Source: Actinomortierella ambigua | Taxonomy: Eukaryota; Mortierellomycota; Mortierellomycetes; Mortierellales; Mortierellaceae | Assembly: GCA_016098155.1 (NCBI GenBank) | Contig: JAAAJB010000025.1 | Span: forward strand, 54,207 to 118,206 | DNA length: 64,000 nucleotides | Reading direction: 5' to 3' | Shown here: piece after piece, positions 31,001 through 64,000 of the stretch | Layout of the letters: each line of letters begins with the position of its first letter | How positions within the stretch are numbered: the stretch's first letter is position 1 | Notes under the pieces: model-generated | Database searches by the model: none | What the model was told of the DNA's origin: nothing | What the model saw: the letters and a program-made list of their open reading frames with translations, nothing else | Translations under genes and position numbers: made by a program

Positions 31001-32636
31001 ACAGCAGGACCAGCCTCAGCAACTGGCATTCGAGGAGGATATCGGTCACCAAGCTATTCTCCGAGTTCTCAAACGAGTGCGCACTCGTGGCGTGGCAGAC
31101 GTCTTTGGAGCAATTGTGGCTGGTGCCTTGTCGTCCATCCAACCAGATGTCAACAAGCTGACGCTACGCGGATTTGGCTATTTTGCGCTTTTTTCGACGT
31201 CGATGGACAGTGTGTCGTCATGGACAGATCCGCGCGTCAAGATCATTGCCATGCTTAGCAGTGGTGATGCCGGCCGCTTGATTGAGAACTCGCCCTTCCC
31301 GGCGACACCACACCGTCTCTTGCAATTCTTGATCCAGCTCTACGAGGACCAGATCCAAAAGACCACAGACTCGTTGGTATCCGCTGCGAACATGTCGGGA
31401 GGTAGCGGGAATAATGATGAGACTGGAGAAAGCGCCACATTTCCGCTTCTTACAAGTGTTCACAATGCTCGTCATTCTCTCTGCCTGGCGGACCTGTATC
31501 ATCTCGACCACCGGCCGCGGGAGTCACTTGGCTATTTTTTGAGCGCTTGCTTGAATGCTTCACGAGGCTTCACAGAGATGGAACGGCTGGAACGTTACAT
31601 ATGGACAGTAGATCCTTCGGGCGGCAGCAATGCCACACTTCGTGCACCTAGTCCTTCGGCGTCACCGTTTCCCAACAATGCCGATGCGGACTACGATCGA
31701 GGTGGTGGATTATCCGATTCGCCTTTCAAGTCACTATCAGCGCTGACGGCGATGAATGGGTCGGGAGGGGATGCAACAGCTGCCGTTGGCCTTGGTCTCT
31801 CACCCCCATCATCCCCTTCCGAAAATGGTATCGGCCCAGGAGCTACTAATGGACCGCATACAACTGCAGCTGCAGCTGCAGCTGCTACGACGGCAGCAGG
31901 ACCAGCCACCGCAGGTGCCACGCCTTCTGTTCCGTCTCAAGCGGCGCCTCAACCAGCGGCGCCTCTCTTACCGTCCACGTTTGCTCTGCGGGCCATCGAC
32001 AACTGCACGCGGATAAGAGAGCCTCTTGCGAGCGCAGCGATGCAACAGTTCCTACCTCGGATTCAATACCAGCAGGCGCACCAGTCATTGACGGCCGCGG
32101 GCGAGATGGGGCTGCTCATTCTATCCAATATGTCCAATAGTAATGCCGGCTCAACAGCAGCAGCAACAGCAGCAACAGCATCATCCGTCGGAGCTAGTGG
32201 AGCTGGTCAAATGCCTCCACCACCTCCTCCTCCACCACCGCCCGCTATGGGAGGAGCTGCTGATTCTGCTTCCGTGGGAGTAGGGTATTTGGATTTGCTG
32301 TTTGACCCCGCGCTTCTTGAGATTGCATACTACTTGCTGAGTCAGCAGCTTCAGCAATTGCAGCGTCAGCGACAGCAGCAACAGGGTCTGCTTGGTACAA
32401 GCGGTGGCAGTGGCAGTGGTAGCGACGCGAGTGGTTCAAGCGGCACGGTCGCAGTGTCTCCTCGACAACGACTGTTGGAGGAAACGATGGGTCGGATCGT
32501 GACCTTGTTGGGGAACAACCGAATGGCCCTCGACACCCGCCCAATTCTTCGAGACCAGCTGAAGACGTTTGTCGAGCGAGAGCTCTTGCTTCGAATGTGG
32601 ACCGTGTATGCTCCCCGCAAATCTCGTCGGTGCTAA
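28079..32636 (+). CDS. INTS8: Integrator complex subunit 8 homologue, seven exons, about 1285 aa
   Basis: INTS8 is a helical-repeat subunit that in animals links Integrator to protein phosphatase 2A. Exons: 28079-28168, 28273-29212, 29333-29631, 29737-29895, about 30037-30458, 30577-30676 and 30784-32636. The junction before 30458 is uncertain (the start of that exon could be 30037 or 30044, with alternative donors near 29886-29903); the others are GT/AG and in phase. Matches to animal INTS8 include the MAELVALEKRGQYSQLVEAF and LPFAWRQSVAWRA block, LLQLYNVLNPFVEVL, the SLCLADLYHLDHRPRESLGY repeat and the C-terminal LDLLFDPALLEIAYYL followed by RELLLRMWTVY. A Ser/Ala/Pro/Gln-rich insertion (about 31600-32270, including a polyproline run) sits inside the C-terminal part. 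The similarity is helical and diverged, but the order of matches agrees along the whole protein. Confidence 0.78.
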
Positions 32637-56615: not shown

Positions 56616-56819
56616 GATTCTGGTAGGGGAAGGGGATGTTGAGGCTATGAACATACACATAGTCGACGTTACGATTGAATTCAAGCGTCGTATGCATAAG
56701 AGTGACGCCGAACATCTTCAGGATTTGCTTTAACAGTGTCCCGAGATGTGATCCCTGCATCTCCAATATGCCAGAGTCCAGCTCGAAACCCTCCTCGCGA
56801 TTGGGGGAGCACATACCCA

Positions 56820-57559
56820 CACATGCTCCTGTCTTCGCTTTCAATGACGAGAAACTGTTTGACGCGGTCCCGGTCTCGATAGAAGAGAACGACACAAACA
56901 GCGTGCTATACGAGGTAGATGGTGTTTTGGGCACGAGGGTCAGAATTGTCGGGTTTGATGAGCACAGGCTTGGCATCGACTATGACAGAATGTCGCTTGG
57001 GGAGTTCCTGGAGGCGCACGTCAAGAATGGCTCACACTCGTCTAGAGATGGAACACAGGTTCCTGCTTTCTATTTTCCTGCCGAGAACCTCTCGGGACCG
57101 GACATTGTCTTTGTTCTCCAGCTTGAAAGTGGTGGTTTTTGCCCTGTATTTGTTCAGATGAAGCTGCGCACTTCCTTGAGTGATGATGAAGTCAAGGGGG
57201 CTTTCACAACTGACATGGCTAATGCTGTCCAAAGGCACCTCGAAGACGCCAAGCTTGAGACTTTCTGCACGGTTTCGAACGAACTGTTCCTTAGCGTTGT
57301 TGCTCCCTATCCAGCCCTCCTGCCAGCGAGCGTCGAAAATCTGTTTTCCAGGCGTGTAACAAAGAGTCAGAGCAAGAGCGCGAAACCAGAACGGGGTCTT
57401 CATTGTGTGGTACTGAAGGTCGACGCCGACAACATACACGATGTGTTCCTGAAGAGGCATGTGGAGTTACTGGATCGCCTCAAGAATGTCAAGAGAGATC
57501 TGGAAAACGTCAGGTCTGACGCAGTGGGCGAGCTTGTAAGAAAGAAACCACGACTCTGA
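56820..57559 (+). pseudogene. 5'-truncated Crinkler (CRN) gene: nuclease-domain C-terminus only
   Basis: The frame from about 56820 to TGA 57557-57559 is about 245 codons and similar along its length to the last third of the intact CRN gene at 60172-63443: SLGEFLEAHVKN, VPAFYFPAENLSGPDIVFV, FCPVFVQMKLRTSLS and VLKVDADNIHDVFLKRHV correspond to MADFLDAHINRN, VPPFFYPEEHVSGPDVVFV, CPVFIQVKLCLKLS and ALTIDDNNIDDLFSDKQV. The putative PD-(D/E)XK-type residues (Asp in GPDIVF, Gln-x-Lys in VQMKL) are kept. The ubiquitin-like header and P-loop NTPase are missing; upstream lies the antisense oxidase fragment. The frame itself is unbroken and begins with usable in-frame ATGs (56675), so expression of a bare nuclease domain cannot be excluded. 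Confidence 0.78.
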
Positions 57560-59611: not shown

Positions 59612-60027
59612 TCAGAATTTTTTTGTTGTTTGTAGAGCTTGTGCGATGACTAAGCAAGGGGGTTGTGTGTATTGGCACGCGCCCTGTGGTTGTTGGGATG
59701 AATGAATTTTACACCTCAAAGAGGTGCCCCATTTGCCATGACTTTGTGTGCGAGACGGAAAGCATTCGCCGGCACTATTGCTCGAAGTGCAGGAGGTACC
59801 GACATTGCGGTAGTATTTTGAAGTCGACAGTAGAGCAGCAAGAGCGACCGCTCTATTTGCAGCCAATGAACGAGGACGGCAGCTATATCCGAATGGAGAA
59901 TGATGGCAAGAACAAGGACCAGCAGGCCACAAGTACATCCTCTTCACCCAACCAAGCAGCAAGCACACGGAGGACGATCATAGCAGGCGACCTTGTAAGA
60001 CTAGCTAGAGCCCATCTCGCACGCTGC
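59612..60027 (+). mobile_element. Fanzor (TnpB-like) C-terminal relic, copy 1
   Basis: Fanzors are eukaryotic RNA-guided nucleases related to transposon TnpB. The readable frame (59665-60060) holds a zinc ribbon: NEFYTSKRCPICHDFV, then RRHYCSKC, i.e. two CxxC pairs, after which the family expects the RuvC-III 'RDVxAGxNI' motif and a QERPLYLQP tail. Here the tail is present (EQQERPLYLQPMNEDGSY), but the RDV..N segment is deleted: sequence jumps from YRH to CGSILKST. So it cannot be catalytically active. The upstream body of the protein (RuvC-I and II) is absent. It shares boundaries with copy 2 (starts TTCAGAA/TCAGAAA, right end TAGAGCCCATCTCGC) and ends about 145 bp before the CRN start codon. 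Confidence 0.65.
60006..60027 (+). repeat. Right-end motif shared by the two Fanzor-like relics
   Basis: TAGAGCCCATCTCGC followed by A, then CGCTGC. The same 22 bases with G instead of A occur at 63978-63999. The sequence just left of it differs much more between the copies, so the motif is more conserved than its surroundings. Confidence 0.75.
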
Positions 60028-60171
60028 TATTGCGATCTGAGATTTTCGGTGACACAATAGTTCGGCCGATGCGCGGGCTACCCTTTCCCATTCCCACGCC
60101 CTTTTGCCACTTCCTCCTCTCCACGACAATTATCATTTCTCCTTGCCCTTCTCAACTCCCTACTTCGCAAC

Positions 60172-63100
60172 ATGACCACTCCCACCACTCTCCTCACCCT
60201 GTTCTGTCTTGTTGATGGGGAGACCAACTCCTTCCCTGTTGACATCGAGCCAAGCAAGACAGTTGCTCACCTCAAGGAGTTCATCAAGGCCAAGATTCCT
60301 GACACGTTGAACGGGGTTGATGCCAAGGACCTCACCCTCTGGCGCGTCTCCATTCCTGTTCTCCCGAAGAAAGACCGCAAAGAAATCAGGCTTGCTGATG
60401 TTCCATCTACAGAGAAAGTGGAGCTCAACGACGAGTTCGACTACATTGCAGGCATGTTTCCTGAGGCACCTCCGATCCCCATCGCAGCTCCGAAGAAATC
60501 AATCGTTAAGTCACTACTGAAGAAATCAAGCCCCATCGAGGCACCTCAGGAGAAATCAAGCCCCATCGAGGCACCTCAGAAGAGAGCAATCCACATCATC
60601 GTCCAGCGCCCTCCTCCTCTAGGTAATGCACGCACGTTTGCTGATTAGTCGTCCGGACGCGCTTTCATTCGTGCCTTTCCGATGCGCTCTCCAACATGAG
60701 CATGAATTTATTCTTCTCTTACTCTCCTACCCCACATTTAGTCCATGTTCCAGTGCCTTCTAGCTCATCGACACCAGTCGCTGTCTACCAACCGGGTCCT
60801 GCATCGCTGGCTAGTACTAGAAACGATCTTGACGGGATAGCGAACGTGTTTTTTAACCCAAAATCGCAATTTATCACGTACCTGCATGAGTTTGTACAAG
60901 GCTCTCATAATTTGCCTGTTACTGGTGGCAACATCTCAGGTCTTCCCCGTGTTGGCAAGCGTGGTCTTGGCAGACCTCGAACAGCCCCATCGCTAATGTT
61001 TTTCGACCTGCCTTCTCCAGTTCAACCTGGCACGGCACACAGCCAAGCTGAAAAGATACTATCGGAGTTTCCAAGCATACGCCACTTGCCTCTCTTTGGC
61101 GTCAGCGGTAATGCACATTTTTTCCACTCCATGTGATGAGCTATATTATAATTGACGAGCTTTCTGAATCACTAATCTCTTTCAGCTCTTTTTTTTCATA
61201 TCCATTGCTAGGCTGTGGAAAAACACGTACAACTGTGGATCTCCTGTCGAGACGTTGGGGACTTTACTTCAACGCGGGTGCAGAGGATTACGGGTCGAGC
61301 GATATGTACAATTTAGCCTATGCTCTCTCGGCACACAACGATGTTTACATCACCACAGACATCAAACAAAACACAAACAGGATCCGAAGCCTTACATACG
61401 GTCTCCTCTTTGCACGGCTGAGGATACTAGAGTACTGTCTGAGCCTCACTAAGAACGGGGACACTTTTACCTGTCAAAGATGGATGCTCCTTCAAATCGC
61501 CACGCCAGTCTTCAGAGATGTCTTTCAAGAGCTATTCCACTTAGTCAGCGAGTACCTGCACAGTCGTCTCTTAACAAGTAGCACTATGAACAGTATCATG
61601 CTAACCATCGTGCAGGAGCTGTTCAACAAGGTTCAAGTGCTTCTTCACGGCCGTTCATCGTCCTCTGCCGTCCACTCTAAGTTTCTTGTTATTCTCGACG
61701 AGTCGCAGTTCCTGGGCAGACTTTTCCCAGAATTATTTTACGACAGCGACATGGTAACCGTTCGGCCTGTGCTGGCTCCTGTTCTCTTTGCCTTCCGACA
61801 TGTCGCTTCTGACACTTCTTATGACAGCATCTGTGTCTTGCCTTGCGGCACTGGCTTGAGCTCGTACGAGCTGACCTGGTCTGGGGGTTCCACAGCCGGT
61901 TCCAAGCTTTCTGCGGATGAATTTAAAGCAAGCAAGTTCTCCGAGATGGTGGTCGATTTTGCTGGCTGGACCGACGTGGGCTCGATCTCGCGTTACCTGG
62001 GCCGTATCCGGCAGGAGCTGAATGATGCAGGCAGGCAACGACTAGACGAGCTAATCCCTGAGGAAGCCATCAAAGAACTTTTTCACCACTTGCGCGGAAG
62101 ATATAGGCCTCTAATTTCGGCGGTATTTTGCGTTGTCTGGCTGTTGTTGTTAGGACGACCAAAACGGAGTCAGGATCTTCCTTTTGTGGTTGTTCGTTGG
62201 AGTCTAACCTGTGTTCCATTTTTTTCATTGCTGAAAAACAAAAACAAAATAGATCGAGGACATCATTGTGACGGACGACCCCAAGGCCTGGGAGGAGCTT
62301 ATCCAGGAGCGCGTGGATCGATTGACGACAGCATCTATCCCCACCACTGATGGCGAGAAGAGACGTCTCGAGGGCAACCTTTGTGGTGAGCTGCGTCGCA
62401 TGTTTGAACATGTCCGCCATGATACAAATACTGTGGCCTATGCCGAGTTCCGCAACGTGGAAGCCACTCTGAATATCGCTGTGGCCACCTTTATCACGCA
62501 GGGCGGGATCATGGCGTTCAAGGGTCAGTTGCCCAAGTTGGTGGAGATTGCCTTTGGCCGCATCAAACTCTTCAACAGCGACTTCTACACCACAGTCGAC
62601 GAGCCCATTGCACTCCAGGCAGCAGACAACTACTTTCAGAGCCGCGACCCGGGATATTCTCAGTTCCGACATGACCAACTCGCGCGCACCCCTACTGAGC
62701 AAACACGTGGCAAGGAATGGGAGTTTACCATCCCATTCGAGATGATTCACGTATTCCACGAAAAGATAGTTTCGACGCGACTATTCCACGATGCAAAGCT
62801 TCCTCACAACATGTTTGAACACAAGGCAGCTGTCGTTGGATGGACTGGTCGCATGCGAACAATTGGCAGCCAGGAGATGACCATGGCTGATTTCCTGGAT
62901 GCGCATATCAACAGAAACTCGGAACAGGATGGTCAGCCTGTGCCGCCGTTTTTCTACCCTGAGGAGCATGTGTCAGGCCCGGATGTTGTCTTTGTTGTCC
63001 GGTTCAGCGGCAAGGCACAAGATAGCCCTCTGGGCAGTTGTTCTACCTCTCCGAGCTCTGTATCTCCGGACATTGTTTGTCCCGTTTTTATTCAGGTTAA

Positions 63101-63443
63101 GCTTTGCTTGAAGCTCTCCCGAAAGGAGGCAGTCGAAGCTCACGACACGGTGCAGCCAAAAAAGGTCAAGGGCCATCTTGTCGAGATCAGCAATTTCTGT
63201 CGACCTCACGGACACTATATTAGTCTTATCATTAGCTACCCCGCTGGGATCGCGAATTTTTTCGTTGACAAGGCCTTAGAAAAGCACGAGGATGGGGTCA
63301 CAGAGATTGCGCTGACGATTGACGACAACAACATTGACGACCTCTTCTCGGACAAACAGGTCCCCGCACTCCAGCTTATGAAACGGCTAGGTGCAGCAAT
63401 GACACGAACCGCAGGAGAACTCAAGCGCCGTAGAGCAGAATGA
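60172..63443 (+). CDS. Crinkler (CRN) effector-type protein, four exons, 972 aa, intact
   Basis: CRN proteins pair a ubiquitin-like header with a P-loop NTPase and a variable, often nuclease, tail; they are secreted or nuclear effectors in oomycetes and some fungi. Exons: 60172-60622, 60742-61107, 61212-62122 and 62253-63443; GT/AG and in phase, total 972 aa. Header (1-105): LTLFCLVDGE, TVAHLKEFIKAKIP and LTLWRVSIP. A Lys/Ser/Pro linker with a 10-residue duplication follows. NTPase: Walker A GVSGCGKTRT (about 269-278), split by the phase-1 intron between SG and CGKT; Walker B FLVILDESQF (about 428-437). Tail: VSGPDVVFV (Asp about 820) and VFIQVKL (Gln857-x-Lys859), a PD-(D/E)XK-like active site. 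No classical signal peptide is visible. Flanked on both sides by Fanzor-like relics. Family and architecture are firm; whether it acts on hosts, rivals or the fungus itself is unknown. Confidence 0.88.
60520..60579 (+). repeat. Two tandem 30-bp units in CRN exon 1
   Basis: Units 60520-60549 and 60550-60579 differ by one base and encode KKSSPIEAPQ and EKSSPIEAPQ in the linker after the header. In-frame duplication lengthens the linker by ten residues. Confidence 0.9.
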
Positions 63444-63497
63444 ATGGATACTAGGTATAAAGTTGGTTTATGCGGAATGAGCCTCTCTCTTTTATTG

Positions 63498-64000
63498 TCA
63501 GAAATTTTTGTTGTTCGCAGAGCTTGTGCGATGGGGGGTTTGTGTATCGGCACGCGCCCTATGGTTGTTGGGTGAATGAATTTTACACCTCAAAGAGGTG
63601 CCCTATTTGCCATGACTTTGTGCGCGAGACGGAAAGCCTTCGCCGGCACCATTGCTCGAAGTGCGGGAATTACTGACATCGCGATGTCTTTGCTGGCCAA
63701 AATATTTGCAATATTTTGAACTCCACAGTGGATCAGCAAGAGCGACCGCTCTATTTGCAGCCGATGAACGAGGACGGCAGCTATGTCCGAATGGAGAATG
63801 ATGGCAGAACAAGGACCAGCAGGCCACAAGTACATCCTCTTCGCCCAACCAAACAGTACCTACAAGTGGCAAGCGACACATGGAGGACCATGATGAGGGG
63901 CGAACGCTAAAAAGCAGGCGCGATAGCCTTTATTTCTCCACTTTACGTACAGCTTCAACGCGAGTTCCTTTTTGGGATAGAGCCCATCTCGCGCGCTGCG
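63498..64000 (+). mobile_element. Fanzor (TnpB-like) C-terminal relic, copy 2 (runs to window edge)
   Basis: Same element end as copy 1. It reads NEFYTSKRCPICHDFV then RRHHCSKCGNY, followed by a TGA stop, and then in the same frame HRDVFAGQNICNIL and QQERPLYLQPMNEDGSY. This copy keeps the RDV-x-AG-x-N motif that copy 1 has lost and is what identifies the family; but it carries the stop, and its upstream part is missing, so it is also dead. The lesions in the two copies are different. The right-end motif lies at 63978-63999, at the edge of the window. Confidence 0.68.
63978..63999 (+). repeat. Second copy of the right-end motif
   Basis: TAGAGCCCATCTCGC, then G, then CGCTGC. In the first copy this motif is followed about 145 bp later by a CRN start codon. 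Confidence 0.75.

Follow-up and report, generated by a model that had tools for sequence, protein, structure and literature searches.

The Fanzor relics and the Crinkler gene

The window—the whole stretch of 64,000 nucleotides analysed here—stems from the soil fungus Actinomortierella ambigua (Mortierellaceae). It carries a Crinkler (CRN) gene flanked by two relics of a Fanzor-like transposon, both on the strand of the CRN gene (59612–60076 and approximately 63498–64000). The window stops inside relic 2, where contig C168 (118206 bases) also ends, so that the sequence past this relic is out of view here. The features are, by position in the window:

56768..57559, + strand: ORF similar to the C-terminal portion of the window CRN (E about 1e-13), without any Pfam match
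59612..60076, + strand: relic 1, 5'-truncated Fanzor last exon with a 24-bp in-frame deletion, right end kept
60006..60076, + strand: Fanzor element right end within relic 1, matched in 10 genome places
60077..60171, + strand: spacer, presumed CRN promoter/5' UTR, common to tail-linked CRN genes
60172..60648, + strand: initial CRN open stretch, carrying the PF20147 header (E 2.2e-21)
60172..63443, + strand: predicted CRN gene, four open stretches in order, read across introns
63498..64000, + strand: relic 2, same Fanzor last exon with a stop codon at 63674–63676; the contig end cuts its right end

The two relics share 83.6% identity over 372 aligned positions, and each is homologous to the terminal exon of the Fanzor-like gene found on contig C471 (E 1.8e-24 and 3.2e-23). 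The deletion in relic 1 lies around the RDV segment; the lesions of relic 2 are the TGA stop codon and a 1-base gap further on. The HRD motif is kept in relic 2 and missing from relic 1. The TnpB-type C4 zinc ribbon (PF07282) is found directly in relic 2 by a six-frame search (E 8.7e-10). The ORF of relic 1 stays under the cut-off of 26.3 bits (18.4 bits, E 0.0025), and its zinc ribbon is recognized via homology to the C471 exon. As judged by these matches, both relics derive from the last exon of a single Fanzor (TnpB-like) subfamily. Relics on C12, C64, C118, C179, C212, and C427 retain parts of the preceding exon; the window copies have none and are thus 5'-shortened. The first-pass annotation of this DNA had described two copies of the same element end in the orientation of the CRN gene, disabled by different lesions, and holds in each of these respects.

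The gene on C471 (11000–14000; L059) features an open first exon of 491 aa with a GIDLG motif and an open zinc-ribbon exon. Its 491-aa frame has 106 database relatives among 7994 candidates scored, and the names shown all belong to genera that we take to be mortierellalean. A single-sequence search against solved Fanzor and TnpB chains gave no match and a profile was needed: built on 15 relatives, it retrieved TnpB-like chains at E 0.0005–0.0035 and the Spizellomyces Fanzor 8gkh at E 0.0097. Both motifs of the pattern D-X(125,275)-[TS][TS]..C4..RD occur in 3 of the 106 relatives, 201–221 residues apart, most relatives being first-exon models; the window relics are 5'-truncated with regard to this single-protein test. 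The zinc ribbon had been open to placement in an unrelated family, and it is PF07282 and the C471 exon that were matched instead.

The gene between the relics is assigned to the CRN family by its conserved N-terminal header, which terminates in ...HIIVQRPPP—an HVLVxxP-like motif—and is 99% identical to a public A. ambigua protein. In our reading, the four open stretches form a single intact gene across introns; the public gene model P0128 (175 aa) spans only its start. A Pfam search with the two later stretches gave no match. By eye, the later stretches contain what we take to be a split Walker A motif (GVSG and CGKT) and a PD-(D/E)XK-like motif. The right end of relic 1 (60076) is separated from the CRN start codon (60172) by 95 bp, and the CRN stop codon (63441–63443) from the start of relic 2 by approximately 55 bp. 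The upstream ORF at 56768–57559 is probably a second CRN-type body. Part of it (56821–56886) is 97% identical over 66 bases to the CRN body that is truncated at the start of contig C797.

Tails and CRN genes across the assembly

The assembly searched comprises 33.8 Mb in 846 contigs. At least 18 matches to the tail—the Fanzor remnant as present in the relics—were found by DNA search and merged to 14 places, these counts being lower bounds; a right-end search added C815 and C339, giving 16 places of the subfamily. PF20147 has 27 matches, or 26 places with an adjoining pair on C149 taken as one. The tail was compared with up to 1.5 kb on either side of all 27 headers, and less at contig ends. 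A same-strand tail is contiguous to the CRN start codon at 5 of the 26 header places (C118, C797, C212, C168, and C409); at a sixth, C326, a tail lies upstream of the CRN gene but is inverted. Random placement would be expected to put 0.0027 tails within 500 bp upstream of a CRN gene. Since the copies descend from each other, this value rejects the random scatter that had been named for checking but gives no count of independent events.

Nine of the 16 places are CRN-linked, including relic 2, the inverted C326 copy, and C815, where a degraded header-like stretch is seen by eye some 650 bp downstream of the right end. Four lack PF20147 on their contig (C12, C64, C179, and C339), and three are truncated where their contigs stop (C427, C484, and C657). 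PF07282 has 18 matches in total, 6 on tail places and 12 elsewhere, and none of these 12 is on a contig with a CRN header (9/13 versus 0/12, Fisher P 0.0005, with rows that are not independent). The association between Fanzor and CRN suggested before is, hence, far above chance genome-wide and is limited to one Fanzor subfamily.

The segment upstream of the window CRN (60083–60230), comprising the spacer and the first header codons, has seven matches in the assembly, all of them tail-linked; one is the start of a second CRN gene on C409. Relative to the subfamily tail, six have the same orientation and one is inverted. The constant orientation named earlier for checking is seen in six of seven matches and fails at C326. 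C409 reads tail, CRN, tail, CRN start—the last cut by the contig end—and is a second tandem array. The proposed tandem duplication of the tail-plus-CRN unit is therefore part of the picture, but the units on C118, C212, and C797 are single. The flank after the right end can be aligned among C168, C409, C797, and C118, and likewise with C212 and the second C409 unit, where a shortened right end is still followed by the spacer. From the tail through the spacer into the first part of the CRN header, the units form a single alignable cassette. It occurs in tandem (C409, and relic 2 behind the window CRN) and singly, ahead of differing header 3' halves and differing bodies.

Further features were noted during these searches. 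Two CRN header matches on C336 (31661–31963, − strand, and 32258–32488, + strand) lie head to head near the contig end. Related small genes are found just upstream of the tails that reach the contig ends on C657 (L027:3805–4491) and C484 (L030:4208–4570); they have a signal-like start and a cysteine-rich end, with a KPKRCK-type repeat in L027.

Borders of the element

Across copies, the right end is constant and the left ends are variable. The copies on C326, C12, C179, and C339 all terminate in GCCGATGCGCGG and diverge beyond it, so that the right end is a real border or lies within a few bases of one, as C326 and C179 have AGGG past it in common. The left border of the window copies is near the 3' splice site of the last intron. 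As an element end it was discarded: several copies diverge near this splice site, and others continue into the Fanzor body. Of the shared relic boundaries noted in the first-pass annotation, the right one is the element end, and the left one coincides with a position near a splice site. A long terminal inverted repeat was likewise discarded, as the 76-base right end occurs in 10 places, in 8 of them on the strand of its own tail; at C815 and C339, same-strand element sequence also precedes the right end. An exact search for telomeric (TTAGGG)4 arrays gave none.

Eleven sequences were screened by script for target-site duplications, of which eight gave valid tests (no end was found for C212, a wrong one for C815, and that of the neighboring unit for C409b). 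One was positive: at C326, the 11-bp word TCTTAACCTTT directly follows the right end, and a second copy, 692 bases farther upstream and beside a CRN promoter, borders the tail fragment on its left. This repeat is consistent with a target-site duplication left by the insertion of a 5'-truncated copy, and the inverted C326 tail is apparently a separate insertion. C12 and C118 have repeats of 9 bp each, off the border; the other five valid tests gave none, nor was one found for the main tail–CRN junction.

At C179, the alignment to CRN-linked tails extends some 50 bases beyond the right end (103480–103555, − strand; L026). An ATG-led frame without PF20147 starts about 90 bases after this right end. 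The flank is in part similar to the CRN spacer; it may belong to a related cassette that precedes a different gene, or may reflect a likeness among pyrimidine-rich promoters.

Mosaic CRN fronts and the origin of the cassette

The tail-linked CRN genes do not group in a tree of 21 near-complete headers. With good support, C797 pairs with the tail-less C694 and C212 with the tail-less C157, and the 3' portions of these headers are alike at 79% and 78%, respectively. The C326 header resembles C168 at 97–98% over 150 bases, and C118 at 91% thereafter. The best body matches are C118–C39, C212–C694, C797–C826, C409–C326, and C168–C797, with bodies partly cut by locus ends. Farther upstream, C168 and C409 have spacers of 97% identity and tails of 89%, and the C168 tail is 96% identical to that of C212 (3' coding part of the tail in both cases). 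The mosaic headers of C326, C797, and C212 support the idea that CRN genes have been shuffled together with Fanzor ends. In the view given in part of PMC5289972, Crinkler effectors combine a common header with exchanged bodies, and recombination has a hotspot at the HVLVxxP end of that header. The header mosaics fit this description, and the exchanged module here extends upstream into the tail. The exchanged CRN front thus visibly includes an upstream transposon tail, by which the segment is marked and its history can be traced. P0195, a protein from another A. ambigua set (prefix DFQ26), joins, by eye, a header like that of C118 to a body start like that of C212; P0195 and P0162, likewise compared by eye, have a body start in common and differ in their headers. 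Fused gene models of tail and CRN header were searched from both sides, with no header in 127 Fanzor-side proteins and no Fanzor exon among 120 listed of 126 CRN-side proteins.

We consider it probable that one 5'-truncated insertion upstream of an ancestral CRN gene was followed by duplication of the cassette and its recombination onto different bodies. In this scenario, a single event would have placed a 5'-truncated element copy, in the orientation of the ancestral CRN gene, about 95 bp ahead of the start codon of that gene. Duplication would then have multiplied the resulting tail–spacer–header cassette, and CRN genes may have exchanged it by gene conversion or ectopic recombination. In this exchange, the tail would serve as passive extra homology, and a Fanzor protein from the relics would be unnecessary; nothing indicates any function of the tail itself. 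Three observations count against a single insertion: the tail tree, the main junction without target-site duplication, and the C179 flank without CRN header. The tail tree, comprising 13 of the 16 places (C427, C815, and C339 omitted), splits the CRN-linked tails with four changes, two of them forced by well-supported branches, and places the four tails labeled as not linked (C326 included) on one side in 22% of bootstraps. Since the CRN-linked tails are not grouped, a single origin rests on the shared junction.

The same lack of grouping speaks for the alternative that CRN upstream regions are a hot spot for repeated, independent insertion of this Fanzor subfamily. C326 agrees with such a hot spot, since its tail is inverted, has an 11-bp duplication of its own, and lies next to a CRN gene of the same spacer group. 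The C179 right end, about 90 bases before a different ATG-led frame, agrees as well. However, separate insertions would not yield the alignable flanks seen past the right end in the same-orientation units, and the 12 other zinc-ribbon matches avoid CRN-header contigs altogether. We regard such a hot spot as unlikely.

Somewhat less likely still is that the CRN genes are cargo of a larger Fanzor-bearing transposon, e.g., a Helitron-like one. Fanzor1 copies that are truncated on the 5' side but fixed at the 3' end are known from Helitron2 elements (PMC3627910, in part), and helitrons were proposed as a driver of CRN recombination in Phytophthora (PMC5289972, in part). Here, the right end sits between tail and CRN, which leaves the CRN gene outside the element. 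Among the 10 right-end places, copies beyond a CRN gene are those of the next unit only; the earlier idea that the element carried the CRN genes is not supported, as no end of its own was found beyond any of them. Helitron genes adjoining the units were also looked for, and none was found: Helitron_like_N has four matches (three above cut-off), none on contigs with tails or CRN headers. Helitron2 elements have asymmetric terminal repeats and hairpins at both ends and a RepHel protein; here, no left end was identified, and the right-end hairpin lacks covariation. The Helitron2-type Fanzor1 of Chlamydomonas, with one-ended transposition as covered by part of PMC3627910, is similar in its 5'-truncated copies and constant 3' end, and its duplications of 7–19 bp compare with 11 bp at one copy here. 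In contrast, the fragments described here lack an adjoining Helitron protein, have ends whose Helitron2 nature is at most putative, and travel with an effector gene. The CRN genes of Phytophthora infestans, located in helitron-rich regions (PMC5289972, in part, citing Haas 2009), share transposon neighbors, tail-to-head arrays, and header–body recombination; in the present mortierellalean fungus, in contrast, the repeated cassette includes a Fanzor tail joined to the front of the CRN gene. In Rhizophagus, crinkler genes are among the families discussed with transposons (PMC8647823, in part). Nothing pairing Fanzor with Crinkler, with Mortierella, or with "effector gene" was found in open-licence papers.

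That the right ends still function as ghost loci, whether for guide RNA or for regulation, appears very improbable. Ghost loci of Spizellomyces punctatus have guide RNA without protein (PMC10432273, in part), and Fanzor-like open exons exist elsewhere in the A. ambigua genome. The loci are alike in having a right end without an intact Fanzor gene; here, coding-exon remnants are kept and no left inverted repeat was seen, unlike in Spizellomyces. A structure derived from one copy pairs in 81.7% of cells versus 29–50% for slid versions. However, none of 25 pairs shows change on both sides among 10 sequences, and folding is better than that of shuffles in one of five copies; a right-end RNA structure is not supported. 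Identities range from 0.71 to 0.98 in the zinc-ribbon part, 0.83 to 0.98 in the 3' coding part, and 0.89 to 0.94 in the right end, so that the copies agree with one another in the right end to no greater degree than in the dead coding part, with no clear extra constraint on the right end. A flank search with one version of the putative guide (up to three mismatches) returned the units on C212 and C409 and three chance-level matches, equal to the control number; no empty target for this version was found in the assembly. It is equally improbable that a right-end RNA ending in CRN upstream sequence might, with an intact Fanzor from elsewhere in the genome, cause cutting and conversion of CRN loci—an RNA-guided nuclease would then drive the spread of an effector cassette. 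An assembly artefact, to which several tails at contig ends might point, can be practically dismissed, since the copies diverge by 2–17% within the 3' coding part and several contigs show the arrangement, on either strand.
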